From positions 112,820,127 to 112,884,126 of the forward strand of contig OX578146.1 of assembly GCA_951213105.1 (NCBI GenBank): 64,000 bases of DNA, given 5' to 3'. Source of the stretch: Amaurobius ferox (taxonomy: Eukaryota; Arthropoda; Arachnida; Araneae; Amaurobiidae). The position numbers and the translations under genes are program-made. Shown here in pieces: positions 3,033 to 62,008 of this stretch. The notes under the pieces were generated by a model. That model was not told the DNA's origin. It saw only the letters and a program-made list of their open reading frames with translations, and did not search any database. The stretch's first letter is position 1. Every line of letters begins with the position of its first letter.

Positions 3033-3677
3033 CAGGGTATCACAAAAACATTGACCTCAGCTTTTATTCCTTAAATATTGATCTTAGACATATATAATAA
3101 ATTTCAAAGTTGCGTTAAAAAAGGTACAGAATTTTATGAAATCGATAAAAATTTCCAGGGGATTAAATTTGAAGAAACACAAAATTAAAATTTTTATACG
3201 GCCCTCATACAAAAACATTTCCAATGAGTAAAATGTGCCCCAAACACTAATAAGGTGATGTGCAAAATTTCAGCATTTTATCATAAAAAGTCCCAGAGAT
3301 ATTTTTAAACGAAGTTAGTGAGGGATTAATCGCAAATTAAAATGCAAATGTTTACAGCAAGAGTGCAAATGACGGAACGCAAAAATGCATCATAGGCAAA
3401 TAATATCTGCCTCTTACCTTTAAAGGATCTTTGGCAGGATGGAAAACATTTTGAACAAGCTTTGTAATCTTTGTGTAAAGTTATTATGTCTACACAGCGT
3501 AGATACCTTTGTACCAATAGCAAAATTATTATTTATTTATGTAATCATTGTTACTTTCCTTATATACATAATGTATAAGGAAAGTATTATGACGGGGTCG
3601 AAAATTCGAATTCGAGTTTTCGACGGGAGAGCACGTTTCAAGCATCCCTGATCACGAATCAAACATTTTTGGAGTGA

Positions 3678-3715
<38 letters not shown>

Positions 3716-4880
3716 TATGTGTGTATGTGTGTGTGTCAGTGAGTCTGTGGAGACGATAACAGACGAACGAATGGACCGATTCGAACCAAATTTGGTACAA
3801 AAATCACAATCCGTAAACACTGGAAGCCTATTGTTTTTATACGTAATCGAATGTTCAGAACCTCCCTAAATTTTCGAATGAAATTTTGAAAAAATCGTCA
3901 AAAAATCAAAACCGCTAATAAAGTTACTCAAATAGACATTTCTTATGTAATTTTTCATTAGAAAACGATTGGCATAAATTTTAGAAGGCTAACATGAACC
4001 GTTCTCGAGATATTGTACATTTTTCAAAAAAATTATGAAAAAGTCACATAAAAAAAATTCCTATTGAGAAACATGTTCACTTTTCATATGTAATACCATG
4101 CGATAAATTGAGTGACATCATTCTCGTGGATCTAGCTCGTTCCATTCATGAAAAAATATACTTTGAATAATACTTTTGTATTTGAACGCCAATAGTCATT
4201 TATCTGCTGTAAGAATAACTTTTTTCTTAGTGCATAACTCTTGGCGAGATTTTGGCGACGAATTTGGCGAAATGTCGCCAACTTGGTGACTTTTTGAAAT
4301 GTTGCCAAATTAACGTAAATCTCGTCAAATGGATAAAAATGACGCTAAATCAATGAAAATGACAACTAATTGTCGAAAATTCAATATCTTGGAAAGAATA
4401 TTAGTATCTACTATAAGAAAAACCTATTTTTTTACTGTAAAAGTAGTAAATTCATTACATTATATAAGGAAAGTCATGTGTTGCCCACATCAGATTTTTT
4501 TCTTTCGTAATTTGTGTATGACCTCTGAAACGCGATCTGCCGACATGGTTTTTCCCCTCTGAGAACCCATGTTGATGCATCGAAAAGTGGTTTAAGACAG
4601 CATTTTTGTCTTCCATATCTCTGGGACTTTTTATGATAAAATGATGAAATTTTGTACATCACCTTATTAGTGTATAGGGCACATTTTACTCATTGGAAAT
4701 GTTTTTGTACAGGAGCTGTATAAAAATTTAAATTTTGTATTTCTTAAAATTTCTTTGAAAATTTTAATCGATTTCATAAAATTCTGTACTTTTTTTACGC
4801 AACTTTGTAATTTGTTATGTAATGTCGAAGATCAATATTTAAGGAATAAAAGCCGAGGTCAATGTTTTTGGGACACCCTG
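3033..4880. mobile_element. Foldback element (CAGGGTGTCCC ends), interrupted by HLE-A
   Basis: Left arm about 3033-3300 and right arm about 4590-4880 are long imperfect inverted repeats of about 270-290 bp that begin CAGGGT(A/G)TC. The copy is flanked by TATA on both sides (3029-3032 and 4881-4884). The centre (3305-3552 and 4495-4590) matches the element at 62.6-63.7 kb. An HLE-A copy (3553-4494) sits in the middle, so the foldback is the older insertion; without it the element is about 906 bp. A short segment (3439-3530) is shared in inverted sense with 63.55-63.66 kb. The superfamily is not assigned. Confidence 0.75.
3553..4494 (+). mobile_element. HLE-A copy 1 (Helentron/HINE-like, non-autonomous)
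   Basis: It starts with a palindrome built from ACTTTCCTTATA and TATAAGGAAAGT (3553-3585), followed by a (TG)n block at about 3682-3740. It ends with TATATAAGGAAAGT (4461-4474), a hairpin ATGTG-TTGCC-CACAT and CAGA before a T-run. The 5' terminal motif therefore recurs inverted just inside the 3' hairpin, which is the asymmetric terminal repeat arrangement of Helentron-derived elements. No protein is encoded. A region near 4230-4400 is rich in TTGGCGA/TCGCCAA motifs, as in all HLE-A copies. Confidence 0.7.
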
Positions 4881-4884
4881 TATA

Positions 4885-6300
4885 ATGTTCAGTATAATTC
4901 AAAATAATCTTGCATGATATTTGACTAGAGAGTTTTAGGGTAGGGATTTTTTTTTTTGCGAAATTAATGGAACATTTCCGATAAAATTTCGGAAATTTCG
5001 CGGTTATTCCTAGAAATATATTAAATTTAAATGAGTGGATTATTATTACATTCTAAATTTCAAATTTTTTCAATGCAAAAATTAGAAAAGTGATTTTTTT
5101 TTATTATATATGATTTATTTGCTTTTTGAATCTATTATAAAACTAGAAGTGAGTTATGGGTTATATAGTAAAAATCCACTGTAAAACCAAATCCCCTTTT
5201 TAATTGCATTCTAATACTTTCCGTGTACATTATCATGTATTGTAGGGAAAATAATACTTGATTGAAATGCATTAGTATAAGATGCATAGAAATATTCTAT
5301 TCAAATTTAATATCTCGAATAATTTAATAAAACATCATTTAAAATATGCTCCTTCATTCAGAGACCAAGTTATTCATGCGTTCGCGTTAATTTGTTAATA
5401 TTTTTTTACAGCGGAACTCTTTTTTGGTTTGAATCTGCAAGTGAAAAAGAAAAGCTGTTCGTTCATTGAACTCTCAGATGAATAGATATATCTCTGATAT
5501 GGTTTATTTTTCATAAAAACAAAGCTGCAGTTGAGTTTTTAAATGCGTGGTTCTGCCTTTTTTCCGAAAGATATTTGCTATGAATGAAATATGCAAAAAC
5601 GATTTAAGAATGGTTTAAAATAAATCCAATGTTTTATTTTTTATTTAGGAATATTAAATATTTTTTTTAATCCCAAAAGAATTTTTAGAGGAAAAATAAA
5701 ATTTTTTAGAAATCATGATATTTAGTTTTGCCTCAATGTTTATCTTAGCTGCAGCTTATCATGTTCAAATATAATATAAAAAATTCGCAAATTTATTATG
5801 CATTTTTAAAATTTATGTTTATATGTGGATATATAAGATTTTGATGAAACTTCAATGCATTCTAATTGAGGTAAATATGTACGCCTTGAGACTGTTTTTT
5901 GCATTTTCGAACCGATGTGAAATATTTGACATGATTGACAAAATTTTAAATCATAGTCAAGTAGAATAAATTTAGTATCTTATGATTTTTTATTTAATTA
6001 TATTTTTAACTTATCAGGGATTTTTATGCTTAGTAAAAAACATACACCACTTTAGTTTTCAGAAATATTTACCATATTTCTAGATTAAAACACATGAAAA
6101 AGATCAGGAAGATATTTTTCTGTAATTCAAACACAATGTATAAAGATTTTAATACATTTAACGGATAAATTATTTGAGAAACTGTTTTCACTTTTATGTT
6201 TTCTTTTAATTGCAAAAAAATTTAAAAAAATAAATAAAATATTTAGTATTGTTTTGTATGCACATTAGATTCTGAGCAAAATCTAAATGTATTCAAAAGT
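4885..6300. other. gene-free AT-rich stretch with a relic HLE 5' palindrome
   Basis: No gene seen. Around 5215-5256 a degenerate palindrome (ACTTTCCGTG...TGTAGGGAAAA) resembles the 5' hairpin of HLE-B and is probably an old, otherwise unrecognisable copy. Confidence 0.4.
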
Positions 6301-6497
6301 TACTGAAAAAACTTAGTATACATTTTTAGCATCTGGCGGATAAAAAATATAGTTATATAAATCGCATGCAAAATGCAAAATATAACGTTCCAAAGCGGCG
6401 GCAGACTTTAAAAAATTGGCGACAGTCTTGGCGACAGAAATAACCTCTAAGTCTAAGGAAAAATTGAGCAACGTGTATATGCACAAATAACATAATA

Positions 6498-6550
6498 ATG
6501 CATCATACAGCTGTTTCGAAGATACGTTGGAACCCTTCATCAGTGCAAGA
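6498..6550 (-). ncRNA. hammerhead-ribozyme-like motif, possibly of a Penelope-like element
   Basis: On the minus strand the conserved core pieces appear in order: CTGATGA (6537-6543), a 19-nt stem-II region, GAAA (6514-6517), the very short stem III CAGCTG (6508-6513) and then TGTA. A tiny CAGCTG stem III is known from hammerheads carried by Penelope-like retroelements. Stem I can form only about 4 bp with a 3-nt bulge, and the base pair closing stem II would be A.C, so the copy is degenerate and probably inactive. No reverse transcriptase is visible nearby. Confidence 0.4.
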
Positions 6551-6605
6551 GAATCAACAAACCCGTCTAAAAGAGGAATGGGAGCAAAATGAAGAGACAG
6601 AGGGC

Positions 6606-6623
6606 GGGGGGGGGGGGGGGGGG
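6606..6623 (+). repeat. G18 homopolymer
   Basis: A run of 18 G in otherwise AT-rich DNA. Further runs of G or C of 9-19 nt occur at about 9266, 17350, 17551, 21859, 28800, 43300, 44670 and 47157. Confidence 0.9.
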
Positions 6624-7067
6624 TATATACCCCACGTATGCAATATATCCAAGACTTGGATTAAGAGAGAAGCAATCAGAAAGTAGCATGAAGCATCGTT
6701 GAATATTGTACTCTTTTGTAATTATCTGACAACAATAGGATTTTTGAAAAAAAAACAAATAAATAAATAAAATATGCCGGTTCTACTTTTTTAAGGATTC
6801 GCCAGATTTGAATAAAATAAAATGCTCTACTAGACTAAGCTGTGCACCAACTTCCAGCTTTCCAAGAAAAGTATGTTCGTAGAAAGGTATGTTGAAAATG
6901 CCATCAAAGAAGTTGAAACAGATAGATAACCATGCATGGATAATAGTTAAATAACGAGTTAAATAAAATCTTTAAAATAATAAAAAAAAAAAACCCATTT
7001 AATCAATACATTTTAGCACATTTAATCTTTTATTGCAAATTCTGGCGTATCATTTCGATAAAAAAAA
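6624..7067. other. gene-free stretch
   Basis: AT-rich sequence with short A-runs; no feature that I can support. Confidence 0.4.
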
Positions 7068-7828
7068 TCTGATGTGGGCAGCACATGACTTTCTTTATAT
7101 AATGCAATGAATTTACTACTTTTACAGCTAAATAAAACGTTATTCTTATAGTTGATTCTTTTCATGATATTGAATTTTCTTCAATTTGTCGTCATTTTCA
7201 TTGATGTAGCGTCATTTTTATCCATTTGGCGAGATTTTTGTTAATTTGGCAACAATTAAAAATGTCGCCAAGTTGGCGAAATTCCGCGTAATTTGTCGCC
7301 AAAATCTTGCCAAGCGTTATGGATGGAGAAATAAGTTATTCTTACATCAGATAAATGACTATTGGCGTTCAAATACAAAAGTATTACTTAAAGTATCTTT
7401 TTTCATGAATGGAACGAGCTAGATCCACGAAAATGATGTCACCCAATTTATCGCATGGTATTACATATGAAAAGTGAACATGTTTCTCAATAGGAAATAT
7501 TTTTATTTTTTATTTAATATAACTTTTTGACAATTTTTTTGAAAAATGTGCAATATCTAGAGAATGGTTCATGTTAGTGATCTAACATTTATGCCAATCG
7601 TTTTCTAATGAAAAATTACATAAGAAATGTCTATTCGCGTAACTTTATTAGCGGTTTTGATTTTTTGACGATTTTTTCAAAATTTCATTCGGAAACTTAG
7701 GGGGGTTCTGAACATTCGATTGCGTATAAAAACAATAGACTTCCAGTGTTTACGGATTGTGATTTTTGTACCAAATTTCGTTCGAATCGGTCCATTCGTT
7801 CGTCAGTTATCGTCTCCACAGACTCACT

Positions 7829-7876
<48 letters not shown>

Positions 7877-8003
7877 CATCACTTCATAAATGTTTGATTC
7901 GTGATCAGGGATGCTTGAAACGTGCTCTCGAGTCGAAAACTAGAAATCGAATTTTCGATCCCGTCACAACACTTTCCTTATACATTATGTATATAAGGAA
8001 AGT
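7068..8003 (-). mobile_element. HLE-A copy 2
   Basis: Reverse-strand copy. The 3' hairpin is at 7068-7090 (TCTGATGTGGGCAGCACATG), the inner terminal motif GACTTTCCTTATATA follows, and the 5' palindrome is at 7971-8003. A (CA)n tract at 7831-7875 is the microsatellite core. The TTGGCGA-rich block lies at about 7200-7320. The copy is essentially full-length at about 936 bp. Confidence 0.7.
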
Positions 8004-8059
8004 AAAAAAGGAATTTCTATGTTTTCACTCATACTAAAATATAATCATTTCCAGGCTAA

Positions 8060-8280
8060 CTCACAAATGAGACGTGGAATTGGTCTATTAGTTTTTGAAC
8101 TATAGTGGATGTATTCATTGCACAGACACACACAGATGTCACATTGGAAATCTTTTTTTTTTTTTTTTTGGTGTGTGTTGTAGACTACTTGAAATGTGTA
8201 GATTTGTCGAAAACTCGAGTTACGATTTTCGACGCGATTCCAATACTTTCCCTATCAACACTATGTATTGTAGGGAAAGT
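8060..8280 (-). mobile_element. HLE-B 5' fragment
   Basis: The 5' palindrome (8246-8280), the GTTTTCGAC block and the (CA) microsatellite of HLE-B are present on the minus strand. The homology fades at about 8060 and no 3' hairpin follows, so the element is truncated close to HLE-A copy 2. Confidence 0.55.
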
Positions 8281-9522
8281 AAAAATTATGAAAATGGGCT
8301 TACTAAAATGCAAGAACACAATGGGGATTGATGGATTCAACAAATGGTCACATAATTTAAATTTAAAAGCGTTTTTTGGTGGAGTTAAAAACAAACCTGC
8401 AAGTGAAGATCTTTCGTTTAAAAACAAATTATGAAATTCTACAGAGAAGTTGCCAACAAGTCGCTGGGGGAAAGAAACGTCGTCAGAGTTTAAATATATA
8501 AATACAAATCAAGGAATAAAATTTTATTTTCTCATTCTTTGACATTCAAAGTAATTCCGAAAACTGAGATTTATCTCTAATCAAAAAACCTAACTTCTCG
8601 AGCAACAAATGCTTATTTTCACGTTAAAATAAAAAAAATGCATGTGTTTTTTTATCCACTTATTATACACCGTTTCTCTTGTTTATTAAGGCATATCCGA
8701 ATAATCCTCTTCCAAACGAGCGCATTCCAAACGAATTTTATTTTGGTCTTCGAATGGCTTTGGAGAGGTGTCTCAGGATTGCGTTGATCAATGACCACCA
8801 TAACGGCGCGCACTTCAAAGGGGAGTGTGTATGGTCTGCACCAGGGAGAGGGTATGCCCAGTGTTTGAAAAATTCGAAGCTGTTCGCGGTTTTTTTTTTA
8901 TTTTATTTCTTTTTATTTGTTTCTTCGCTACTGCGAAAATAAATTAATTTTGTTTGAAATAATGGTGGCAGTTGTAGAAATAATAGCAGAGGCGACAACA
9001 GATGAAAGAAGTTGCAGAGGATCAGTTAAATATGTGTTGTATTCCTTTATTTCTTATCAAACTAATCTATTATTGTACAGATAAATGATTGTTTTTCAAA
9101 ATATTTTTCGAAATATTTTCAGATAATTATTTCCTATGGAAAACAATGATCGTCTACGGAACATGGCAGCAGTCAATACTGGAATTCGGGGCTTTTTGCA
9201 AGGAAAATTTAGTACTGCACAAGCGGGCACTATTATTAGTGACTTATATATTGTGTGAGAGGGGGGGGGGGAATTTGGGTATTTCTGACTCGGGAAATTT
9301 TCAAAGTTTGAAATATGGCTATGTTAGTAATTTTATGAAATGGCCTTTTACATTTAGAGGTGGAAGCTGAGAATTGCAAAGGATCTATAAAGATTAGGCG
9401 GTTATAAAAATTTTATAAAAATGTTTTAATTTCGAAGATAACTCAGGGTACTTAGTTCAGTGAAGGTTTGTTTTTCAGTAGTAGAATTCTTTCTGTAATG
9501 TTACTTTATGGAACAAAGGTAA
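8281..9522. other. gene-free stretch with a shared repeat at about 8690-8890
   Basis: The segment around 8710-8800 (GAGCGCATTCC ... CTCAGGATTGCG) recurs in diverged form at 19945-20020 and possibly 11840-11960, so it is a dispersed repeat of unknown type. No coding region is supported. Confidence 0.4.
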
Positions 9523-11090: not shown

Positions 11091-11463
11091 CCCCTCAGAG
11101 CAAAGATCGTCACATGTGTGACAGTGACGTTGTACTCACGTGAAACCTGGGTCACAATGTGAAATCATATTTGTGACTTCTATGCGACGTTACGTATTAG
11201 TAACTTTGTAACTTCATTGTGACTATATTCTGTGACGTTTCCACAATGTAATTAACACATAACAATGTGACGATATTACAATGACAATGTGATGTCACAA
11301 ACAAGTTAATATGCGACGTCACAAACGACCATGAAAATGACCAAAATGACTTCGCTGTGACTTCAATATGACATTGACGAGACGTACTGAGACGTCCTGT
11401 GACGTCCCAAAGTCACAGTGTGACGTAAATCTTACGTCACTGTGAATAAAAATGCTGTTAGGG
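11091..11463 (-). mobile_element. MITE rich in TGACGTCA-like motifs, copy 1
   Basis: A 373-bp sequence with ends CCCCTCAGAGCA and TGCTGTTAGGG, repeated in opposite orientation at 42823-43191. The ends form a short imperfect inverted repeat. The body is packed with GTGAC/GTCAC and (T)GACGTC(A) motifs at short intervals. No coding capacity. Confidence 0.7.
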
Positions 11464-12377: not shown

Positions 12378-13330
12378 ACTTTACTTATATACATAATGTA
12401 TAAGGAAAGTATTGTGACGGGGTTGAAAATTCGAATTCGAGTTTTCGACGAGAGAGCACGTTTCAAGCATCCCTGTACACGAATCAAACATTTTTGAAGT
12501 GATGTCTGTGTATGTGTGTGTGTGTGTGTGTGAAAGTATGTCCGTGTGTGTGTGTGTGTGTGTCAGTGAGTCTGTGGAGACGATAACTGACGAACGAATG
12601 GACCGATTCGAACGAAATTTGGTACAAAAATCACAATCTGTAAACACTGAAAGCCTATTGTTTTTATATGTAATCGAATGTTCAGAACTCCCCCTAAACT
12701 TTCGAGTGAAATTTTGAAAAAATCGTCAAAAAATCAAAACCGCTAATAAAGTTACGCAAGTAGATATTTCTTATGTAATTTTTTATTAGAAAAAGATTGA
12801 CATAAATTTTAGAACGCTAACATCAATCGTTCTCGAGATATTGCACATATGTCAAAAAAATTATCATAAAGTTATATAAAATAAAAAAAAAAATTTCCTA
12901 TTGAGAAACATGTTCACTTTTCATATGTAATATCATGCGATAAATTGGGTGACATCATTCTAGTGGATCTAGCTCGTTCCATTCATGAAAAAATATACTT
13001 TGAGTAATATTTTTGCATTTGAACGCCAATAGTCATTTATCTGCTGTAAGAATAACTTATTTCTCTGTCCATAACGCTTGGCTAGATTTTGGCGACGAAT
13101 TTGGCGAAATGTCGCCAACTTGGCGACATTTTAAATTGTTGCTAAATTAACAAAAATCTCGCCAAATTGATAAAAATGACGCTAAATCAATGAAAATGAT
13201 GACTAATTGAAGAAAATTCAATATCTTGGAAAGAATATAAGTACCTACTATAAGAATAACACTGTTTTAACTGTAAAAGTAGTAAATTCATTGTATTATA
13301 TAAGGAAAGTCATGTGTTGCCCACATAAGA
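12378..13330 (+). mobile_element. HLE-A copy 3
   Basis: Complete copy: 5' palindrome 12378-12410, two (TG)n tracts at about 12506-12562, TTGGCGA block at 13080-13200, inner TATATAAGGAAAGT and the 3' hairpin ending CACATAAGA at 13330. A T-run follows. Confidence 0.7.
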
Positions 13331-14150
13331 TTTTTACTTTTAATATACAGATGCATAAATTTCAGCTAAAACAGTTAGTATGGAACATAATATAACTGAT
13401 ATTACAGAGCCCTACCATTCTCTCTCAACAATTTCCTCTAATTTTACACGTGAGTGAAATGAGATATAAAGTAAACTATGTGATAGAGTGAATTTCATTA
13501 GGTAAACATTTCTCTCCCATCTGTCCGCCTGCAGTACTTGCGTTCTAAAATATTCAGACAACTCAGCTTATGCATTGTAAATATTTTTAACACGTTAAGC
13601 GCGGCGTCAGTCTGTGGGGACTGACAGTGAACTTTTCGTTTGGGTGGCATCGGTCCTTGGGACAGGTAGTATCAAGGTTAAAAAATCTGATGTGGGCAGC
13701 ACATGACTTTCCCTGCAGACTTAAATTCAGATTTTCTTTATTTCTTAAATAATTCATTAGACTGATTTTAATTGCACCAAATAACACTAAATTTGCATTT
13801 TTAATTCAATTTTTGTTTTTATTTTGTAATTGGACATTTTTCCGATAGCGACGTAACAAAAATGCAAGAAATCTCAAATATATTGAGAACGGTTAGTCCT
13901 AAAGTATAATGGAGTGTGTTATATTCTTTTCCTCGTCAAAAACTGCGTATAAAACAAGAATTTAATTGATACATTTCAGCAAACATAGCCTTTTTTACTT
14001 TCCCTGCAATACATGGCAATGTATAGGGAAAGTATTGGAATCATGCCGAAAATCGCAACTCGAGTTTTCGACAGATCTACACGTTTCGAGACCTCTAGAA
14101 TACGAAAAAACCATTTTTAGCGTGACGTCTGTGTGTGTGTCTGTCTATCT

Positions 14151-14904
14151 GTGTGTCTACCTGTGCAGATTTTGTATCCACTCTAACTAAAAAACTAATT
14201 GACCGATTTTCATAAAATTTGGTAGGTAAGTCACTTGTGGGCGAATCTGGTGCTGATTAGTTTTGGGTACGATTGGGGATAAAAGAACCCGTCTTTTTTT
14301 GCGAAAAGGCCCGCAAAAGCTTGTATCCACTCTAGCTAAAAATCCAATGGATCGAATTTCACAAAATTTGGTAGATAAGTCCTTTGTAGATCACCCTGGT
14401 GCTGATTCGATTTTGGTACGATTCGGAAAAAAATAACCTGCCTTTTTTTGCAAAATGGCCCGCAGAAATCTTCAAAATTTAAAATAAGAAACTACGTACG
14501 CTCAAATATATCCATTAAAAGCTTGTTGTGTGTCTGCCTGTGCAGATTTTGTATCCACTCTAACTAAAAAACTAATTGACCGATTTTCATAAAATTTGGT
14601 AGGTAAGTCACTTGTGGGCGAATCTGGTGCTGATTAGTTTTGGGTACGATTGGGGATAAAAGAACCCGTCTTTTTTTGCGAAATGGCCCGCAAAAGCTTG
14701 TATCCACTCTAGCTAAAAATCTAATGGATCGAATTTCACAAAATTTGGTAGATAAGTCCTTTGTAGATCACCCTGGTGCTGATTCGATTTTGGTACGATT
14801 TGGAAAAAAAAACCCTGCCTTTTTTTGCAAAAACGCCCGCAGAAATCTTCAAAATTTAAAATAAGAAACTACGTACGCTCAAATATATCCATTAAAAGCT
14901 TGTT
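14151..14904 (+). repeat. 377-bp tandem duplication inside HLE-B
   Basis: The block from about 14151 to 14527 is repeated at about 14528-14904 with only a few differences. CTGTGCAGAT lies at 14161 and again at 14538. The near identity implies a recent event. Each unit contains two diverged 170-bp sub-repeats. Confidence 0.85.
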
Positions 14905-15089
14905 TTATACGTAATTTTTAATAAGACCAACCTCATTACACTCACTGAATAAGACCAACCTCATTACACTAGGACTAGCCGTTCTCGAGATATTTTAGTT
15001 TTTTCGTATTTCTCTACGCCACCTTTGAAAATAAGTGCAGTTACCAAATGAGAACGAAAATTGATTTAAAAGTGAATTAAATTTAATAA

Positions 15090-15878
15090 AAAAAATCTGA
15101 TGTGGGCAGCACATGACTTTCCCTGCAGACTTATATGCATGTTCTCTTTATTTTAATTAAATTTATTCCACTTTTAATTCAATTTTCGTTCTCATTCGGT
15201 AACCGGACTTATTTTCTAAGGTGGCGTAGAGAAAATACGAAAAACTAAAATATCTCGAGAACGGCTAGTCCTACTATAATGGGGTTGGTCTTATTCTTTT
15301 CTTCGCTAAAAATTACGTATTAAACAAGCATTTAATGGATGTATTTGAGCATACGTAGTTCTCTAGTTTAGATTTGGACGATTTTTGCGGGCCATTCTGC
15401 AAAAAAAGGCAGGTTATTTTTTTCTGAATCGTACCAAAATCTAATCAGCACCAGGGCAACCTATACGTGACTCATCTATCGAATTTTGTGAAATTCGGTC
15501 CATTAGTTTTTCAATTACAGTGGATACAAGCTTTTGCGGGCCATTTCACAAAAAAGGCGGGTTCTTTTATTCCGAATCGTACCCAAAACTAATCAGCACC
15601 AGCCCCGCCCACAAGTGACTTACCTACAAAATTTTGTGAAATTCGGTCCATTAGTTTTTTAGTTAGAGTGGATACAAAATCTGTACAGACAGACACACAG
15701 ACACACAGACACACAGACTGACACACAGACAGACACACACACAGACGTCACGCTAAAAATGGTTTTTTCGTATTCTAGAGGTCTCGAAACGTGTAGATCC
15801 GTCGAAAACTCGAGTTGCGATTTTCGGCATGATTCCAATACTTTCCCTATACATTACCATGTATTGCAGGGAAAGTAA
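15090..15878 (-). mobile_element. HLE-B inner copy
   Basis: Complete minus-strand copy: 3' hairpin at 15092-15112, inner motif GACTTTCCCTGCAGAC, two internal 170-bp units, (CA)-rich tract 15690-15745 and 5' palindrome 15839-15878. It is flanked only by A-runs of the host HLE-B and shows no obvious target duplication. Confidence 0.75.
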
Positions 15879-16580
15879 AAAAGAGAACGTGGATATAAGT
15901 CTGCAGGGAAAGTCATGTGCTGTCCACATCAGATTTTTTTTTAGATTTTGGCTATTTTTGCGGGCCATTTCGTAAAAAAAGGCAAGTTGTCATTTTTCGA
16001 ATCGTACCAAAATCGAATCAGCAACCGAGAGTCTCATAAGTAACTTATCTACCAAATATTGTGAAATTTGGTCAATTAGTATTTTATCTAGGGTGGATAC
16101 ATGAAATTTCTGCGGGCCATTTCGTAAAAAGAGGCGGGTTCTCCTTTTCCGACTCGTACTTAATTCTAATCAGCAGCAGAGTATCCAACAAGTAACTTAT
16201 CTACCAAATTTTGTGAAATTGGTAAAGTTGTATTCTAGCTAGAGCGGATAAATGAAATTTTTACAGGCCATTTCACAAAAAAAAGGCGGGTTCTGTTTCT
16301 ACGAATCGCACCAAAAACTAATCCGCGCCAGGGTCATATCCAAGTGACTTGCCTACCAAATTTTATGAAATTCGGTCCATTAGTTTTTGAGTTAGAGTGG
16401 ATACGCACAGACACACAGACATACACACAGATACACACGCGCACACAGACGTCACGTTAAAAATAGTTTTTTCGTATTCTAGAGTTCTCGAAACGTGTAG
16501 ATCCGTCGAAAACTCGAGTTGGAATTTTCGACATGATTCCGATACTTTTTCTATACGTTACCATGTATTGCAGGGAATGT

Positions 16581-17154
16581 AAAAATAAATGTTACAATTT
16601 TAATGGAGTTTATTAAAACATTCTAAGCAAAGATGTGGTTTGGTTTTACACATATTACAAAAAGTGACGACCTGTTTGTTTAACTCTCTGTCTGTATTGC
16701 GCCCGAATATTTTTGCGCCATTCGTATAGTCGAAACGGACAGTGAAATACAATCGTCACCTCGACGTGTGTGTTATCTTCTGTTTATACGTTATGAGCAA
16801 ACACCTCACCGAGTCTTCGCTGCTATGTGCCGCCTGAACTGTAGGCAGAGCAAGAACAGCTAGCTCCACGTTCATCGTGCTAATTACTAAACCAGCCCTG
16901 TAAAATAATATGCGACACCTAAAATAAAGCAATTACTTTATGACCCGCTAGACCCCCCCTACCAAAACGTATCTGTCAGACGAATAGTGAAACTTGCTGT
17001 ATTTTGAATAAAGCATATTAAATTAATAATTCATACAAATGATTGGGTACTATCATAAACATGTATTTTAATGTTTAGATATATTGAACTTGGCGACAAT
17101 TGAAGACGTTTCTAATTTGGCGATATTTCGCCAAAGTTTTCTCCAAGTACGACA
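16581..17154. other. gene-free stretch
   Basis: No gene recognised. TTGGCGA/TCGCCAA motifs at 17090-17135 recall the internal block of HLE-A. Confidence 0.4.
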
Positions 17155-17162
17155 GACGAACA

Positions 17163-18727: not shown

Positions 18728-19661
18728 ACTTTCTTTATATACATAATGTATAAGGAAAGTATTGTGACGGGGTCGAAAATTCGAATTCGAGTTTTCGACA
18801 GGAGAGCCCGTTTCAAGCATCCCTGATCACGAATCGAACATTTTTGAAGTGTTGTCTGTGTGTGTGTGAAAGTGTGTGTGTGTGTGTGTGTGTAAAATTA
18901 TGTGTGTGGAGACGATAACTGACAAACGAATAGACCGATTCTAATGAAATTTGGTACACAAATTACAATCCGTAAATACTGGAAGCTTATTGTTTTTATA
19001 CGCTATCGAATGTTTAGAACCCCCCTAAATTTTCGAGTGAAATTTTGAAAAAATCGTCAAAAAATCAAATCGTCTAATAAAGTTACGCAAATAGACATTT
19101 CTTATGTAATTTTTCATTAGAAAACGATTGACATAAATTTTAGAACGCTAACATGAACCGTTCTCGAGATATTGTACAGTTTCCAAAAAAATTATCAAAA
19201 AGTCATATAATAAAAAAAAAATTCCTATTGAGAAACATGTTCACTTTTCATATGTAATACCATGCGATAAATTGGGTGACATCATTCTCGTGTATCTAGC
19301 TTGTTCCATTCATGAAAAAAGGTACTTTGAGTAATAATTTTGCATTTGAACGCCAATAGTCATTTATCTGCTGTAAGAATAACTTATTTCTCCTTCCATA
19401 ACGCTTGGTGAGGTTTTGGCGACGATTTTGGTGGAATGTCGCCAACTTGGCGACTTTTTTAAATGCTGCTAAATTAACGAAGAACTTGCCAAATGGATAA
19501 AAATGACGCTAAATCAATGAAAATAACGACTAATTGACGAAAATTCAATATCTTGGAAAGAATATAAATATCTACTATAAAAATAATCTATTTCATTTTT
19601 ACTGTAAAAGTAGTAAATTCATTGCATTATATAAGGAAAGTCATTTGTTGCCCACATCAGA
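18728..19661 (+). mobile_element. HLE-A copy 4
   Basis: 5' palindrome 18728-18760, (TG)n at about 18856-18905, TTGGCGA block at 19400-19520, inner motif and 3' hairpin ending CACATCAGA at about 19661, then a T-run. Confidence 0.7.
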
Positions 19662-27194: not shown

Positions 27195-29074
27195 ATCTGA
27201 TGTGGGCAGCACATGATTTTTCATATACAGGGTGTCCCAAAATGATTGAAACGCGATTTAATTCTTTGCGTGTTGGAGTTAAGTGGGCAATGTAAATTGC
27301 AAAAATGTTGAAAGTAAGGTAGGAAATAAGACTACGTTAATGAAATAGTCCTCCCATTCATTTTCAGAAAGATACACTTTTTAAATTTTTAAACGACCCT
27401 CTTATACAAATTTGGTCAATCAGAATTTTTTTATTTTTAATGCAACAAAATCATTAAAAGAAACGGCATATCTGTATCTTTAAAATCAACTGAATTATGA
27501 TAAAGGACTAAATCTGACATATTCCACTTTTCCGTACCATGTGAAAGGCTATTTCCTCAGTGAAAATAGGGATCATAAACAAATTGACGATGGAAATTGT
27601 TTAGATAAAAAAAGTACTTAATTATTGAAAAAGTACTTGGTTATTGAAAAGTACTTAAAAATCCGTGATTGCATCGTGAGCCTACGCGGAATTCGCAAAA
27701 ATGTCTCCTATGTATTATCATCCAGTTTTATCTTTTTTGTGATATGTCACAAATTTAAATTTCTGATTTGATATAGGGTCCCCATTCACAATGTTCAATT
27801 TTCAATTAAATATAACTCGCTCAATTTTAAAGATACAGATATGGGGTTTTTTAATGATCTTGTTGCACTAAAAATAAAAATTTTCTGATTGACCAAATGT
27901 GTCTAAGTGGGTCGTATAAAAATTTAAAAAAGTGTAACTCTTTGAAAATTAATGGGAGGACTATTTCATTAACGTAGTCTTATTTCCTAACTTACTTTCA
28001 ACATTTTTGCAATTGGCATTGCCCACTTATCTCCAACAGGTAAAGATTATGGCGTTTCAATCTTTTTGGGACACTCTGTATAATGCAATAAATTTACTTC
28101 ATTCACAGTGAAAAAAGTATGTATAATATCCACGGCACACTGTTTTTAACATTAAATTGTATACATGACAGCGTGCAAAACTATTTCGAAGCACCCAATT
28201 CACTTATTTCGCGCAATTCTGAATTGAAAATTCTGTGATAATCAACTGTGATAATCAATACAGTCCATGTATTAAAATATTTTAATAATTCATTCACCAA
28301 TTTGGCGTCATTTGCGTTAATTTAGGGTTATGTTTGCAATTTTGACTATATTTTCGTCAATTTGGGGCGATACATTGTCAAGTTGGCGATATTTCGCTAA
28401 ATGAGTCCCCGAGTTTGCCGGATTGATCATCAAGCGTTACATACAGATGAAAAGAAGAGCTTTTCTGATATACAGATAACTGTTGGAGTTAAAGTACCAA
28501 ATTATCGGACAAAGAATCTTCTTTCGTGAATGGAATGAACTAGATCGTCGAAAACGATGCAGCAAATTTGTCGAATAATATTGCGTGAAAAGTGAATATA
28601 GTTCACAATAGTTATTTTTTATTTTATGTAATATTTTTGATAAATTTATTAAAAATATCCCGAGAACGGTTCATGCTAGAGTGCTGAACTTCATATCATT
28701 CATTTTCTAATGAAAAATTACATAAAAAATAATCATTTACGCAACATTATTGAAGGGTTTGATTTAACGATTGTATCAAATTTTGTTTTCGAAAATTTGG
28801 GGGGGGGGGCATCCGAACATTCGATTGCGTTTAAAATCAATAGGATTTTATCATTCACTGTTTGTAATATTTTAACTAAATTTCATTCGAAACACTCCAT
28901 TAGTTCGTGAAATATAGCATACATAGTCTCAATGATAAACACATTGACAATACTTTAAAAAAGGTTCGATTCAGGGATGATTGAAACGTACTCTTCCTTC
29001 ATAAACATGAATTCAAATTTTTGATCCCAACACAATACTTTCCGTATACCTTATACTGTGAATATAATGAACGT
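27195..29074 (-). mobile_element. HLE-A copy 5, diverged and split by a foldback element
   Basis: The 3' hairpin (27196-27216) is followed by TTTTTCATATA, then a foldback insertion (27238-28078), then TATAATGCAATAAATTTAC, which is the continuation expected from other HLE-A copies. The TTGGCGA block is at 28300-28440. The degenerate 5' end (ATACTTTCCGTATA) is at about 29030-29074. Divergence is higher than in other copies, so this is an old insertion. Confidence 0.65.
27238..28078. mobile_element. Foldback element, CAGGGTGTCCC ends, TATA duplication
   Basis: 841 bp with arms of about 275-280 bp (27238-27515 and 27800-28078). The outer 14 bases match the element at 3033, but the rest of the arms is a different sequence, so it is a sister family. 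TATA is duplicated at 27234-27237 and 28079-28082, and removing the element restores the HLE-A sequence, which supports a 4-bp target site. Confidence 0.8.
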
Positions 29075-32708: not shown

Positions 32709-34440
32709 ACTTTTATTATTTTACCATACTATGTACAGAGAAAGTATTGTCTTCACGAAAATTTTCGAATTCGAGATTTTGATATCAATGTATGTTTTAG
32801 GACCTCCTGAACACGTTTTGATTATTTTTGGAGTGATCTCCGTCTATATGTACGTATGTGGTCGTTTTTTACTTTCCTTATAATAATGTATAAGGAAAGT
32901 ATTGTGACGGGGTCGAAAATTCGAATTCGAGTTTTCGATGGGAGAGCACGTTTCAAGCATTCCTGATCACGAATCGAATATTTTTGAAGTGATGTCTGTG
33001 TGTGTGTGCGTGAAAGTATATATGTGTGTGTGTGTCAGTGAGTCTGTGGAGACTATAACACACGAACGACTGGACCTATTCGAGCGAAATTTGGTACGAA
33101 AATTACAATCCGTGAATACTGGAAGTCTATTGTTTTTATACGCAATCGAAAGTTCAGAACCCCCCTAAATTTTCGAGTGAAATTTTGAAAATAACTAAAC
33201 CTCTAATAAAGTTACGCAAATAAACATTTCTTATGCAATTTTTCATTAGAATACAATTGACATAAATTTTAGAACGCTAACATGAACCGTTCTCGAGATA
33301 TTGCACATTTTTCGAAAAAAATATCAAAAAATCATATAGAAAAAAATCTTCTTATTGAGAAACATGTTCACTTTTCATATGTAATACCATGCGATAAATT
33401 TAGTGACATCATTCTCGTGGATCTAGCTTTTTCCATTCATGAAAAAAGATACTTTGAGTAATACTTTTGTATTTGAACGCCAATAGTCATTTATCTGCTA
33501 TAAGAATAACTTATTTCTCCGTCCATAACGCTTGGCGAAATTTTGGCGACGAATTTGGCGGAATGTCGCCAACTTGGCGACATTTTAAATGTTGCTAAAT
33601 TAACGAAAAACTCGCCAAATGGATAAAAATGACGCTAAATCAATGAAAATAACGCTAAATCAATAAAATAATTTTCATCAAATAGATGAAAATTCAATAT
33701 CTTGGAATGAATATAAATATATACTATAAAAATAATCTATTTTTTTACTGTAAAAGTAGTAAATTCATTGCATTGTATAAGGAAAGTTATATGCTGCCCA
33801 CATCAGATATTTTTTTACTGTAAAAGTAATAAATTCATTGCATTGTATAAGGAAAGTCATGTGCTGCCCACATCAGATTTTTTTTTTTTTTGTGTGTGTG
33901 TACATGGCAGCTCCTGCAAATATTAATGGCTTTTCACGAAACTTTATCTTTAACTTTGTTATCAAAAAATCTCGGACTAGATAGCATTTTTTGAAATTCG
34001 AGCTAAATGTTCGAAGTTTCTTCGAAATTTCATATTTTTTTAACATAGCAGCATTGGTCAAAATTTAACATAATCACGCATAAAAGAGTTTATTTATGAT
34101 TCAATTATCAGGAGACTTAACATTTTCAATTATTGTTCTGAAAAAAAAAAAGTTGCGATACAATTTTTATGTTTGTGACGTTACCACGTCACAAGTCTAC
34201 CACGTTAGTCTACCACGTTAGTCACGTTAGTCTACCACGGGGGAAGAGGAGACGTTATCCACCCTGGGAGTGCATTGTCAACTGTGGTATCAATTGCAAT
34301 ACTTTTTCAAGCCTTTAACAGTGGAGGGTAACATGTTATAATTGTGATTATTTGGACCAATAATACGGTTTTTTCAAAATTTTCCTTACAAAAAAAATTT
34401 GCAAAAATTTTCCCCCCAAATTTTTTTTTACAAGCTACTT
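32709..34440 (+). mobile_element. HLE-C copy 1, split by HLE-A
   Basis: 5' part 32709-32870 (degenerate palindrome, then TTTTCGAATTCGAG), then an HLE-A insertion, then the body from 33878 onward (TGTACATGGCAGCTCC, ATTAATGG, ACTAGATAG, GTTGCGATACA). The same blocks run without interruption in HLE-C at 44108-44948, which proves the nesting. The 3' limit is not clear. Confidence 0.6.
32871..33877 (+). mobile_element. HLE-A copy 6, with duplicated 3' terminus
   Basis: 5' palindrome 32871-32902, (TG)n 32996-33037, TTGGCGA block 33520-33660. The last 70 bp occur twice in tandem (about 33740-33809 and 33810-33877). Each contains the inner GGAAAGT motif and a complete 3' hairpin ending CATCAGA. Confidence 0.75.
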
Positions 34441-37951: not shown

Positions 37952-38700
37952 ACTTTCCCTGCAATACTTGGTAATGTATAGGGAGAGTATTGGAATCATG
38001 TCGAAAATCGCAACTCGAGTTTTCGACGGATCTACGCGTTTCGAGACATCTAGAATACGAAAAAACTAATTTTAGCGTGACGTCTGTGTGTGTGTCTGTC
38101 TGTCTGTCTGTGCAGATTTTGTATCCACTCTAACTAAAAAAGTAATTGACCGAATTTCACAAAATTTGGTAGGTAAGTCACTTGTGGCGAATCTAGTGCT
38201 GATAAGTTTTGGGTACGATTATGGATAAAATAACCCGCCTTTTTTTCCGAAATGACCCGCAAAAGCTTGTATCCACTTTAACTGAAAAACTAATGGACCG
38301 AATTTCACAAAATTCGGTTTATAAATCACTTGTGGGCTACCCTGGTGCTGATTAGATTTTGGTACGATTCGAAGAAAAATAACCTGCCTTTTTTTGCAAA
38401 ATGACCCTCAAAAATCGTCAAAATCTAAACTAACGAACTAGGTATACTCAAAAACATCCATTAAATGCTCGTTTAATACATAATTTTTAACGACGAAAAG
38501 AATAAGACCAACCCCATTATGCTAGGACTAGCCGTTCTCGAGATATTTTTGTTTTTCGTATTTTCTCTACGCCACCTTTGAAAATAAGTGCAGTTGCCAA
38601 ATGAGAACGAAAATTGAATTAAAAGTGAATTAAATTTAATAAAAATAAAGAGAACGTGAATATAAGTTTGCAGGGAAAGTCATGTGCTGCCCACATCAAA
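37952..38700 (+). mobile_element. HLE-B copy, first of a head-to-tail pair
   Basis: Palindrome ACTTTCCCTGCAATAC...AGGGAGAGT at 37952-37988, GTCTGT microsatellite at about 38083-38112, two 170-bp internal units, inner TTTGCAGGGAAAGT and 3' hairpin ending CACATCAAA at 38700. Confidence 0.75.
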
Positions 38701-38705
38701 TTTTT

Positions 38706-39474
38706 ACTTTCCCTGCAATACATAGTAATGTATAGGGGAAGTATTGGAATCATGTCGAAAATCGTAACTCGAGTTTTTGACGTATCTACGCGTTTCGAGG
38801 CCTCTAGAATACGTAAAAGCTATTTTTAGCTTGACGTATGTGTGTGTGTCTATATGACTGTCTGTCTGTCTGTGTGTTTGTGCAATGTATGTATCCACTC
38901 TAACTCAAAAACTTATGGACCGAATTTCATAAAATTTGGTAGGTAAGTCACTTGTGGGCGAAACTGGTGCTGATTAGTTTTAAGTACGATTCCGGAAAAA
39001 ATAATTCGCTTTTTTTTTGCGAAATGTCCTGCAAAAGCCTGTATTCACTCTAGCTGAAAAACTGATTACCGAATTTCACAAAATTCGGTAGATAAGTCAG
39101 TTGTGGGTCACCCTGGTGCTGATTAGATTTTGGTACAATTCGAAAAAAAATAACCTGTCTTTTTTTTTAAAAAATGGCCCGCAAAAATCGTCAAAATCTA
39201 AAATAAAAAACTACGTATGCTCAAATATATCAATTAAATGCTTGTTTTATACGTAAGTTTTAACGCGAGAAAGAATAAGACCAACCCCATTACACCAGGA
39301 CTAGCCGTTCTCGAGATATTTTAGTTTTTTCGTATTTTTTCTACGCCATTATTGAAAATAAGTCCAGTTACCAAATGAGAACGAAAATTGAATTAAAAGT
39401 GAATTAAATTTAATTGAAATAAAAAGAACTTGGATATAAGTCTGCAGGGAAAGTCATGTGCTGCCCACATCAGA
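38706..39474 (+). mobile_element. HLE-B copy, second of a head-to-tail pair
   Basis: Begins five T after the end of the preceding copy, in the same orientation. It has the palindrome at 38706-38741, two internal units, inner CTGCAGGGAAAGT and a 3' hairpin ending CATCAGA at about 39474. Confidence 0.75.
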
Positions 39475-40732: not shown

Positions 40733-41382
40733 ACTTTCTCTGCAATACTTGGTAATGTATAGGGAAAGTATCAAAATCATGCCGAAAATCGCAACTCGAG
40801 TTTTCGACGGATCTATACGTTTTGTAACCTCTAGAATAAAAAAAAAAACTATTTTTATAGTGTAGGCTGTGTGTCTATCTGTGCAATAAATGTATCCACT
40901 CTATCTTGGAAACTAATGGATCACATTTTATAAAATTTGGTAGGTAAGTCACTTATGTGTGATCCTGGTGCTGATTAGATGTTGGTACGATTCGAAAAAA
41001 AAGAACCTGTCTTTTTTAGTGAAATGGCCTGCAAAAATCGTCAAAATCTAAAATAAAAATCTGCGTTTGCTCAAATATATTAATTAAATGTTTATTTATA
41101 TGTAATTTTTAACGATCAAAAGAATAAGATTAACCCCATTACACTAAGACTAGCCGTTTTTGAGATATTTTAGACTTTTCGCATTTTCGCTGCACCACTT
41201 TAGAAAATAAGCCCCCCTACCAAATAAAAACGAAAATTAAATTAAAAGTGCAAACTCAGTGTAATTTTAAATAATTATGGTTGTTATTTTATGCAATTAA
41301 ACTCGATGTAATGAATTATTGAAGAAATAAAGAGAAGGCGAATATAAGTCTGCAGGGAAAGTCATGTGCTGCCCACAACAGA
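40733..41382 (+). mobile_element. HLE-B copy with one internal unit
   Basis: Palindrome 40733-40769, one 170-bp internal unit (TGTATCCACTC at 40890), inner CTGCAGGGAAAGT and 3' hairpin ending CCACAACAGA at 41382. Confidence 0.7.
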
Positions 41383-44948: not shown

Positions 44949-45020
44949 ATCTGATGTGGGTAGCATATGACATTCTCTACACAATGCAGCGGCACTACTT
45001 TTTGAACGGAGAACTATTGG

Positions 45021-45402
45021 TTGTTGTTGAGACCCAGACCTTCCGACCTACCAGAAACGTGTAAGGTAACTGTTTGGATGGCCGGGAAGTGCCACCCAAT
45101 TTAGACCGGAGCCCAGTGGGGGAGGCATCCACAGGGACCGTACCCTCCTTCCCCTATCACCAACCTCTCGGAAGGACTTACGGACCCACATGTTTAACGT
45201 GATCGTACTCCGCATGAACACGGCGGCAGTTGTGGCAGCGTGCAAATCCAGCGCGCAAACCACCGGGTTACCGCGCCCGAAATGTGCCAACAGCACGCGG
45301 TGTTCCCAGGTGGTCACCCACCCAAGTACTAACCGCGCCCGATGCTGCCTGACTTCGGTGATCTAACGAGAACCGGTGTTTTCAGCACGGTACGACCGTT
45401 GG
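45021..45402 (-). mobile_element. SINE with 5S rRNA-derived head (full length)
   Basis: On the minus strand it begins with a 5S rRNA-like sequence (45402 down to 45286) and continues into the same tail as the SINE at 17 kb (GTACGATCACGTTAAACATG), ending in CAACAACAA. Perfect 13-bp target duplications GGAGAACTATTGG flank it at 45008-45020 and 45403-45415. 5S-headed SINEs (SINE3 type) are known in fishes and some other animals. Confidence 0.9.
45286..45402 (-). ncRNA. 5S rRNA-like Pol III promoter head of SINE
   Basis: About 117 nt that follow 5S rRNA from the 5' end (CCAACGG) to CGTGCTGTTGGC. The internal control elements are recognisable: an A-box-like AAGTCAGGCAGC, the intermediate TCGGGCG and the C box GGGTGGGTGACC. 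It is joined directly to the SINE tail and flanked by a target duplication, so it is part of a transposon and not a 5S gene. Confidence 0.85.
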
Positions 45403-45900
45403 GGAGAACTATTGGTGTAAATGTTCTCAGCACAATGATTTTGTCGCTGAATTAACATCACATAAATCGAAATTGGGCACCCTTTGTAACTTATTAGTCC
45501 AAACTTAATTACTTTATTCATACTCACATGCAACAGTATTATCAAAATGTAATTGACATTCAATTATTATCCCTTTAAATGATAGACTTTTGATGAATTC
45601 TTTGGCTTTAAAATTGGCTATTTTCTCTCGTGAATCTGATGGGCTCGATCTACGAGTATAATGTTAACAAATTTGTTGCACAATACTGCAACATATATGG
45701 AAAGTGAACATATTTCACGATAGTTACCATTTTTTAAATTTTATTATAAATCTATTTAATAAATATGCAATATTTCGAGAACGATTTCTGCTAACGTTTT
45801 GAAATTTGTGTCATTCGTTTTCTAATAAAAAATTACTGGTAGAAAGATTATTTATTCAACATGTTGCTAATTTTACTTCAAACCAAAAAAAATGCTACAA

Positions 45901-53973: not shown

Positions 53974-54596
53974 TATTTTCCCTGCAATATATGGTAATGT
54001 ATAGGGAAAGTATTGAAATCATGTCGAAAATCACAACTCGAGTTTTCGACGGATCTACACGTTTCGAGACTTCAAGAATACGAAAAAGCTATTTTTAGCT
54101 TGACGTCTGTGTGTGTGTCTGTCTGTGTGTCTGTGCAATGTATGTATCCACTCTAACTCAAAAACTAATGGACCGAATTTCATAAAATTTGTTAGGTAAG
54201 TCACTTGGATGTGACCCTGGTGCTGATTAGTTTTTGGTACGATGCGTAATAACAGAACCCGTCTGTTTTTGCGAAATGGTCCGCAAAAATCGCTAAAATC
54301 TAAAGAAATATATCAATTAAATTCTTGTTTTATACGCAATTTTTGACGAGGAAAAGAATATAACACACTCCATTATACTTTAGGACTAACCGTTCTCAAG
54401 ATATTTGAGATTTCTTGCATTTTTGTTACGCTGTTATCGGGAAAATATCCAATTACCAAATAAAAACAAAAATTGAATTAAAAATGCAAATTTAGTGTTA
54501 TTTGGTGCAATTAAACTCAATCTAATGAATTATTAAAGAAATAAAGAAAATATGCATTTAAGTCTGCAGGGAAAGTCATGTGCTGCCCACATAAGA
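53974..54596 (+). mobile_element. HLE-B copy with one internal unit
   Basis: 5' palindrome 53974-54011, GTCTGT tract 54105-54135, one 170-bp unit, inner CTGCAGGGAAAGT and 3' hairpin ending CACATAAGA at about 54596. Confidence 0.7.
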
Positions 54597-61055: not shown

Positions 61056-61816
61056 ATCTGATGTGGGCAACACATGACTTTCCTTATATAATGCAATGAA
61101 TTTACTACATTTACAGTTTAAAAAAATGTTATTCTTATAGTAGATACTTATATTCTTTCAAAGATATTGAATTTTCTTGAATTACTCGACTTTTTCATTG
61201 ATTTGGCGTCATTTTTATCCATTTGGCAAGATTTTCGTTAATTTGACAACATTTAAAAATGTCGCCCAGTTGGCGACATTTCGCTAAGGTTGTCGCCAAA
61301 ATCTCGCCAAGCGTTATGGACGGAAAAATAAGTTATTCTTACAGCAGATAAATGACCATTGGTGTTCAAATACAAAAGTATTACTCAAAGTATCTTTTCT
61401 CGTGAATGGAACGAGTTAGATCCACGAAAATAATGCCACCAAATTTACCGCATAATATTACATATGAAAAGTGAACATGTTTCTTAACAGTTAATATGTT
61501 TTTTAATTTATGGGACTTTTTGATAAATTTATTTGAAAAATGTGCAATATCTCAAGAACGGTTCATGCTAGTGTTCAAAATTTGTCAATCGTTTTCTAAG
61601 GAAAAATTACATAAGAAATGTCTATTTGCGTAACTTTATTAAACATTTTGATTTTTTGATGATTTTTTCAAAATTTCACTTAAAATTTAGGAGGGTTCTG
61701 AACATTCGATCGTGTTTTAAAACAAGCTTCAAGTATTCATGGATTGTGATTTTTGTACCAAATTTCATGCGAATCGCTCCATTTGTTGGTGAGATATCAT
61801 CTCCAAAGACTCACTG

Positions 61817-61850
<34 letters not shown>

Positions 61851-61851
61851 T

Positions 61852-61887
<36 letters not shown>

Positions 61888-62008
61888 TCACCTAAAAAAA
61901 GGTTAGATTCGTGATCAGGGATGCTTAAAACGTGCTCTACCGTCGAAAACTCGGATTCGAATTTTCGATCCCATCACAATACTTTCCTTATATGTATATA
62001 AGGAATGT
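61056..62008 (-). mobile_element. HLE-A copy 8
   Basis: 3' hairpin 61057-61077, TTGGCGA block 61200-61320, two (CA)n tracts 61820-61880 and a shortened 5' palindrome 61981-62008. Complete. Confidence 0.7.

Follow-up and report, generated by a model that had tools for sequence, protein, structure and literature searches.

Helentrons are rolling-circle transposons whose protein combines a Rep nuclease, a PIF1 helicase and an endonuclease. The architecture, insertion target and partner elements of HINEs and DINE-1 have already been described (PMC4067079, PMC2374699), as have oyster HINEs that carry repeats (PMC7492417) and Helitron2, an endonuclease-free relative (PMC5148889); citations here and below refer to portions of the respective papers. 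In the mite Metaseiulus occidentalis, Helentron-Mo and its deletion derivative HINE-Mo have palindromic subTIRs, a 3′ palindrome, T-rich insertion without target duplication, a Rep with the S signature and a C-terminal endonuclease (PMC4067079). DINE-1 of Drosophila carries a subTIR, a partial inverted repeat beside the 5′ end, a GTCY microsatellite, variable central repeats, a 3′ stem-loop and inserts at TT (PMC2374699), while Cg_HINE of the Pacific oyster and Pearl place arrays of ~150-bp repeats between a microsatellite part and a 3′ module, with several HINE families (PMC7492417). Helitron2/FoHeli of Fusarium has asymmetric inverted repeats and, in some elements, a hairpin at each end; it inserts beside T's and encodes a Rep-helicase without endonuclease (PMC5148889). 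Rolling-circle elements of spiders include the Hel1 and Hel2 Helitrons of two species (PMC6544945, in the main text of which the word 'Helentron' is absent), and Helitron numbers are high in two Araneidae assemblies (PMC8693713). Our search of the open literature for spider Helentrons, a weak one judged from titles and listings, found no reports among the papers listed, and other papers may exist.

Here we describe a 64,000-nt window of the genome of the spider Amaurobius ferox (contig OX578146.1; GC 29.5–39.1% per 4 kb), at least 21% of which (13,752 of 64,000 bases, profile matches at E <1e-5) is covered by three families of short elements, A, B and C. These elements combine an asymmetric inverted repeat, a 5′ palindrome and a 3′ hairpin, T-rich insertion sites and, for families A and B, a Helentron partner with the same ends, the features by which HINEs are recognized, and we read them, with a probability of about 0.95, as HINEs, non-autonomous relatives of Helentrons. 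They and their partners share the features listed above with the mite, fly, oyster, fungal and spider systems, the likenesses to HINE-Mo, Cg_HINE/Pearl, FoHeli and Hel1/Hel2 being drawn from descriptions. The families are new, of a known kind and, in A and B, with Helentron partners; flies, mites and oysters provide precedents for their design. The finding is ordinary in kind and well supported; the partner test, usually left open, is closed for family A and, without endonuclease, for family B, and the unusual part is the endonuclease-free B lineage.

A profile search of the window detected 16 3′ ends at E ≤2.3e-8 (next candidate, E 0.11), 11 of them belonging to the 11 copies from which the profile was built and five to others, and a 5′ profile likewise built from 11 copies detected 17 5′ ends at E ≤1.8e-6 and one partial end at E 2.8e-5. 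Fourteen of the 16 3′ ends are paired with a 5′ end in the correct order, the two unpaired ones being the doubled end of copy A5 and one old remnant. The exact pattern GGAAAGT..ATGTG..CACATCAGA occurs seven times in the window and never in 100 shuffles. An earlier note, made by reading the window alone, had counted about 16 such 3′ ends, composed of GGAAAGT, an ATGTG/CACAT hairpin and CAGA, in three related families with a microsatellite core, one terminal repeat lying at the 5′ end inside a palindrome and its partner ahead of the 3′ hairpin. The profile count, the exact pattern and the alignments bear out this description: all six 3′ positions offered as examples fall on such ends, with 61056 off by one base, the first copy begins with ACTTTCC at 3553 and ends with CATCAGA at 4494, and the three families are genuine, with A alignable to B across the 5′ half, including one unit of the B central repeat. 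The microsatellite, of TG/GTCY type, is present in all 11 aligned copies, though very short in B3.

Family A comprises six complete copies of 934–953 bp (A5 measured without its doubled end) with pairwise identities of 86–92%: A1 (3553..4494, plus strand), A2 (7068..8003, minus), A3 (12378..13330, plus), A4 (18728..19661, plus), A5 (32871..33877, plus) and A6 (61057..62008, minus). In addition, there is an old A-like copy (27195..29073, minus) broken near its 3′ end by an apparent mariner-type MITE, and an old A-like remnant with a 3′ end (44949..45836, minus) broken by sequence holding a 5S rRNA match. Family B comprises five complete uninterrupted copies of ~620–780 bp, 81–91% identical: B1 (37952..38700, plus), with two central repeats of ~149 bp; B2 (38706..39474, plus), head-to-tail with B1 with exactly TTTTT between them; B3 (40733..41382, plus) and B4 (53976..54596, plus), with one central repeat each; and B5, or Z (15096..15876, minus). 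Two more copies are each split by a nested insertion, namely B6, or Y (13997..15933, plus), which has four central repeats, and B7, or X (13686..16580, minus). B8 (8011..8280, minus) is the 5′ part of the family B element that hosts A2, and an isolated old B-type 5′ end lies at 5193..5254 (minus, by profile). Family C is represented by C1 (32728..34409, plus), interrupted by A5 and given up to where its alignment with C2 stops, and C2 (44105..44821, plus), given as its 5′ end and the stretch aligned to C1. The HINEs have no coding capacity, the frames that cross copies being short and repeat-derived, and a six-frame search of the window found no Rep motif.

Each element starts with ACTTTCC inside a palindrome, and the matching GGAAAGT lies ahead of a 3′ hairpin that ends in CACATCAGA followed by T's. 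In A1, the 5′ subTIR ACTTTCCTTATATA lies within the terminal palindrome (3553..3585, plus) and a second hairpin, GTCGAAAA...TTTTCGAC, kept in A and B, comes after the first (3597..3624, plus), followed by a TG microsatellite (3678..3736, plus) and finally by the 3′ subTIR GGAAAGT, the ATGTG/CACAT hairpin and CAGA (4468..4494, plus; by pattern and profile). The 5′ start ACTTTCCTTATATA of family A has the 3′ counterpart TATATAAGGAAAGT, and the start ACTTTCCCTGCA of family B the counterpart TGCAGGGAAAGT. Averaged over all copy pairs with B4 excluded, identical positions in the first 14 number 12.9 for A–A, 11.8 for B–B, 9.4 for A–B and 8.6 for B–A, so that the subTIRs differ between the families and match within each, the two ends of a family having changed in step. 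The A and B consensus sequences share their last 20 bases, CATGTGYTGCCCACATCAGA. By contrast with HINE-Mo, the spider 3′ subTIR is nearer the end, with 20 bases to the CAGA end against about 38–60 bp, and there is a second 5′ hairpin, as judged from the mite descriptions (PMC4067079).

When the two 5′ hairpins are folded jointly, they are more stable than any of 200 shuffles (z −6.7 for A and −7.4 for B); the 3′ hairpin alone, though exact in sequence, gives z −0.48, with 55 of 200 shuffles as stable. Covariation in the 5′ hairpins is too thin to serve as proof: one pair has changed on both sides in the first hairpin and none in the second, and two of the five measures are matched by 480 and by 500 of 500 shuffles. 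After the hairpins comes the microsatellite and then, in family B, one to four central repeats of ~149 bp. In family A, the block behind the microsatellite is homologous to the B repeat and what follows it (score 269, where the best of 300 single-letter shuffles reached 219), and this homology also appears in profile matches. Central repeats of Drosophila DINE-1 are without homology between species (PMC2374699), whereas in the spider one block homologous to the unit amplified in B is retained by family A. Copy Y reached its four repeats via a 377-bp duplication, 97.9% identical. The elements also allow the rise of a satellite-like array within a HINE to be traced. The 3′ end of A5 is a 70-bp tandem doubling (33738–33807 and 33808–33877, 67 of 70 identical). 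Slippage or recombination between internal and terminal T-runs is the likely cause, because the duplicated unit starts at an internal T-run. Elsewhere in the genome, locus L008 has three family A 3′ ends ~70 bp apart.

At least five T's directly follow 14 of the 16 3′ ends, compared with 0.92% of random positions (1183 of 127,990, both strands). In 13 copies, the sequence shared by the two flanks is T only, 0 to 6 bases; A1, A4 and A6 (3 of the 13) have a left flank with one or two T's and a right flank with six or seven, and B4 has a trimmed start without any left T. Nested copies provide empty sites: Z lies inside Y inside X, A2 lies inside a B-type element (8004–8280, with a much diverged continuation below 7068 as the far side of the host), and A5 lies inside the family C element. 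Rejoining the flanks at these four nested insertions restores the host element with only T's extra relative to related copies, about 5 for Z, 4–5 for Y, 7 for A2 and >10 for A5, where 14 T's stand in the right flank. For Z and Y, the base breaking the T-run in related copies is absent. The earlier note had held that copies sit in T-runs without duplication and had named empty sites with a 2–10 bp duplication as evidence against a HINE identity; the 13 copies agree with it, and none of the four nested insertions shows a duplication apart from T's.

Tandem copies bear on the origin of these T's. All five head-to-tail junctions before an intact 5′ end (B1/B2 at 38700/38706 in the window, three at genomic locus F and one at genomic locus G) read CAGA-TTTTT-ACTTTCC, one F junction and the G junction being probably the same ancestral junction, and two other junctions, before copies without the first 56 bases, have two T's only. 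Because tandem full copies meet in this way, the five T's at the 3′ side are probably part of the element and not solely target, and given the varying T gains and the lost interrupting base in the B-in-B cases, the case for the T5 tail comes mainly from the tandem junctions. The T-run at one end also looks like the tail of a SINE-like retroposon with oligo-T or oligo-A. Such an origin is nonetheless hardly credible: target duplication is absent, the window has just two Rfam matches, to a 5S rRNA and a tRNA, both outside complete copies, and the partners described below carry DNA-transposon proteins. Short elements with inverted repeats between T's, in a window that also holds Tc1/mariner-type ORF fragments, could likewise be MITEs of a DDE transposon that duplicates a T-run target. 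These elements, however, have neither inverted repeats at both termini nor a fixed target duplication: the second inverted repeat is internal, ahead of a hairpin, and the unequal T's at A1, A4 and A6, with none at the B4 start, leave no equal duplication.

The earlier note had proposed a search of the genome for a Rep/helicase ORF flanked by the same ends and had counted an autonomous partner with a DDE transposase against its reading. Our search of 276 contigs (3.56 Gb) reported 151 Helitron_like_N matches, and long flanks were examined for five of these listed Rep loci, F, G, Bc, H and C22, picked from the weaker Rep matches. Two of them, Bc (contig C1) and H (contig C12), have A-type ends and encode Rep, helicase and also endonuclease, and two, F and G, have B-type ends. 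The partners with the same ends thus encode Rep-helicase, plus endonuclease in family A, instead of a DDE transposase, which refutes the MITE reading and leaves it a negligible chance. Together with the empty sites, they support the HINE reading of the earlier note.

Bc and H are 99.6% identical over 17,017 aligned bp and span 16,996 and 16,986 bp, respectively, from ACTTTCC to CAGA, the limits of the shared unit lying within a few bases of the A 5′ and 3′ ends. The alignment extends to the left six bases past ACTTTCC (AATATT) and to the right through TTTTTTTAG; farther left, the flanks are unrelated, and the right flank of Bc is masked after 12 bases, the last three of which differ from H. 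Since both loci share AATATT and the AG after the T's, and since the Bc right flank is masked, separate insertions are proved by the left flanks only. At the start of the 17-kb unit stand three tandem A-like 5′ segments, of which two break off near position 885, and at its end a diverged A-like copy with a 5′ end of its own; the unit is therefore a composite. H adjoins or sits in a B-type element (partly by eye).

Unlike that of Helentron-Mo, the ORF of the A partner is oriented opposite to the element ends, as in a Drosophila ananassae Helentron (PMC4067079). In H, it is one uninterrupted frame of 2084 codons, in which Pfam recognizes DUF6570, Helitron_like_N, PIF1 and a C-terminal Exo_endo_phos domain, and in Bc a stop cuts off the first 208 codons. 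Pfam values for the A partner are 1.7e-10 and 2.7e-10 for Helitron_like_N (the protein being submitted in two parts), 1e-27 for PIF1 and 1.6e-6 for Exo_endo_phos (28.4 bits against a cut-off of 24.5); Exo_endo_phos_2, at 1.3e-5, is under its cut-off. The Rep motif VEFQARGSPHEH is the RG-S-PH signature of Helentrons, and the A partner has the Rep, the PIF1 helicase and the C-terminal endonuclease that define them. Its endonuclease separates it from FoHeli, which also has a different host, as compared by description (PMC5148889), and, again by description, the spider genome differs from the Cg_HINE/Pearl case in yielding partner elements (PMC7492417). Locus C22 (L048, L049) encodes another Rep-helicase-endonuclease protein with RGSPH, the endonuclease region being 30% identical to that of A.

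An S at the motif position marks Helentrons and an L marks Helitrons (PMC4067079). The position is S in F, G, Bc, H and C22, and L in all 30 best-scoring Rep loci (L009–L038). These 30 are canonical Helitron Reps with the GLPH motif, of which the genome has many, in two sequence groups and with listed open frames of up to 1754 codons. The many genomic Helitron_like_N ORFs with GLPH would suit an origin of the window elements as derivatives of canonical Helitrons (Helitron1). This is nevertheless very improbable: the ends are ACTTTCC and CAGA with T's, within T-runs, without 5′-TC, 3′-CTRR or A|T insertion; asymmetric inverted repeats are present; the Reps inside window-type ends carry RGSPH; and A- or B-type ends were absent within 1.5 kb of the canonical GLPH Reps at the 30 loci. 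The identification as HINEs connects abundant repeat families of a spider, right to their ends, with candidate engines that the same genome carries.

A1 is 93% identical to the first 892 bp of the H unit, and their last 35 bases including the T's are identical. Compared with three other genomic HINE copies, those among eight loci (L001–L008) with both ends matched, A1 is 99.6–99.7% identical over 942 bases. Since the A HINEs are only 85–93% identical to the 5′ part of the unit and A1 is ~99.6% identical to these three copies, the 17-kb unit is not the immediate parent of the A HINEs. A 201-base probe from A1 had at least 40 full-length matches at 100% in the genome contigs, plus four partial ones, a floor because 40 of 867 first-look candidates were scored; the four partial matches adjoin full matches. 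Family A was recently active, and the two 17-kb Helentron-bearing units are only 0.4% apart. Three genomic loci (L001, L002 and L003) and A2 in the window carry family A in what appears by eye to be the same T-run of family B (..TTTTTTTGCGAAATGG), which looks like a recurrent landing site, although the neighbors L002 and L003 may not be independent. Viral contigs had 0 matches to two forms of the 3′ end, to the post-microsatellite motif and to the back-translated Rep motif, and prokaryote contigs had 0 matches to the 3′ end, in sets from which records of the window's own genome may be missing.

The B-type partners F (contig C5) and G (contig C16) consist of a B-type 5′ end, central repeats, a Rep-helicase ORF and a 3′ end, and further hold a B copy that has lost its first 56 bases, along with tandem full-length B copies. 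Similarity between the two begins at most 11 bases before ACTTTCC (4945 in F, 3846 in G) and stops at most 11 bases past the second tandem B copy, after CATCAGA (21525 in F, 18948 in G). In between, aligned blocks of >900 bp are 81–96% identical, and F 5853–8839 and G 4835–6935 have no counterpart among the listed blocks. Outside these limits, the left sides of both differ and the right side of G differs, G continuing into unrelated DNA and F into more B copies. Most simply, this would mean that a composite bounded by B ends moved.

The Rep-helicase ORF has 1876 codons in F and 1872 in G, with the motif VEFQMRGSPHEH, and the F protein matches PIF1 at 1.1e-31, Helitron_like_N at 2.7e-23 and DUF6570 at 4.6e-21. 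In F, the end of the helicase lies in a second frame; in G, it is interrupted. By eye, a long tandem array of a ~21-residue unit (KNEEYKEKERNADKEHKTALR type) in the N-terminal part of the F ORF (10247–15874) takes up the greater part of the initial 400 residues shown, ahead of DUF6570. The C-terminal endonuclease of Helentrons is not detectable in F and G: a tblastn search with the A protein found none, the matches stopping at residue 1869, the helicase end, and Pfam found none in the second frame of F, whereas the same tblastn query does recover the endonuclease region of C22, 30% identical, at 4e-29. In a protein search that scored 38 of 699 candidates, the match of a related locus, C19:55365805, to the C-terminal 1231 residues of the A protein likewise breaks off at residue 1016, where the helicase ends.

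Because the two B partner loci examined show no endonuclease, family B stands by published definitions between Helentron and Helitron2. Helitron2 likewise has asymmetric inverted repeats, hairpins at both ends and no endonuclease (PMC5148889, PMC4067079), and the matches that end at the helicase in F, G and C19:55365805 would fit assigning at least family B to Helitron2 rather than to Helentrons. We consider this assignment unlikely: the matched part of F and G is 57–58% identical to the endonuclease-bearing A protein, and both loci have the 3′ terminus and signature motif in common with the A partner, so that a loss of the endonuclease within Helentrons would be the simpler account of F and G.

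Taking a loss within Helentrons as the starting point, we tentatively suggest, as a possibility that falls somewhat short of even odds, that A and B are one Helentron system that has split, A with its endonuclease and B having lost it yet moved afterwards, as the differing F and G flanks may indicate, with its 3′ terminus kept and with central repeats that are an amplified part of its own body, present in single-copy form in A. If this is true, the endonuclease would be unnecessary, or would come in trans from A. Of most interest to specialists are the B lineage without endonuclease and the origin of the central repeats within the element. Because A-type partners with the domain coexist with B-type partners that lack it and have the same 3′ end, the end rules (T5 tail, 3′ hairpin and asymmetric repeat) and the part played by the endonuclease are directly testable.

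Head-to-tail arrays and the lack of target duplication would, indirectly, fit rolling-circle movement of the HINEs. In the mechanism that we propose, the Helentron Rep would nick at the 5′ end, T|ACTTTCC, and the helicase would peel off one strand; the 3′ hairpin next to the second inverted repeat would signal a stop after CAGATTTTT, and the freed single strand would be joined into a T-run. A missed stop would let replication continue and produce head-to-tail arrays joined by TTTTT. Family A HINEs look as though an internal deletion had reduced the 17-kb unit to its initial ~885 bp and final ~65 bp.

The window also contains other repeats. ORF 681–1745 is an RNase H fragment of a non-LTR element, whose best matches are two metagenome proteins (50–51%) and whose named relatives are mostly from the spider Trichonephila (up to about 57%), with Stegodyphus at 61–67% over part of the length. 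A Pfam search of 10 of the 24 stop-to-stop frames of ≥110 aa gave matches above cut-off to RNase H, RVT_3 and DDE_3, and weak matches below cut-off to a Mos1-type HTH, Med27, SusG_C and others. Tc1/mariner-type transposase fragments lie at 21410–22012 and 50774–51515, minus strand (DDE_3, with the Mos1-type HTH below cut-off), and the profile search of the window found no HINE ends flanking them. The insertion in the old family A copy (28076–27225, minus), with inverted ends CAGAGTGTCCCAAAA/TTTTGGGACACCCTG and TA flanks by eye, looks like a mariner-type MITE. An interspersed repeat containing 5S rRNA sequence occurs at 45000–45410, at 17075–17420 and in G at about 13970–14206, where it interrupts the helicase frame; the Rfam match is at 45285–45403 only, the other sites being recognized by eye from similar translations. 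Tandem arrays comprise a satellite of 44.7 units of 20 bp at 57313–58205 and 8.2 perfect copies of a 33-bp unit at 48124–48392.
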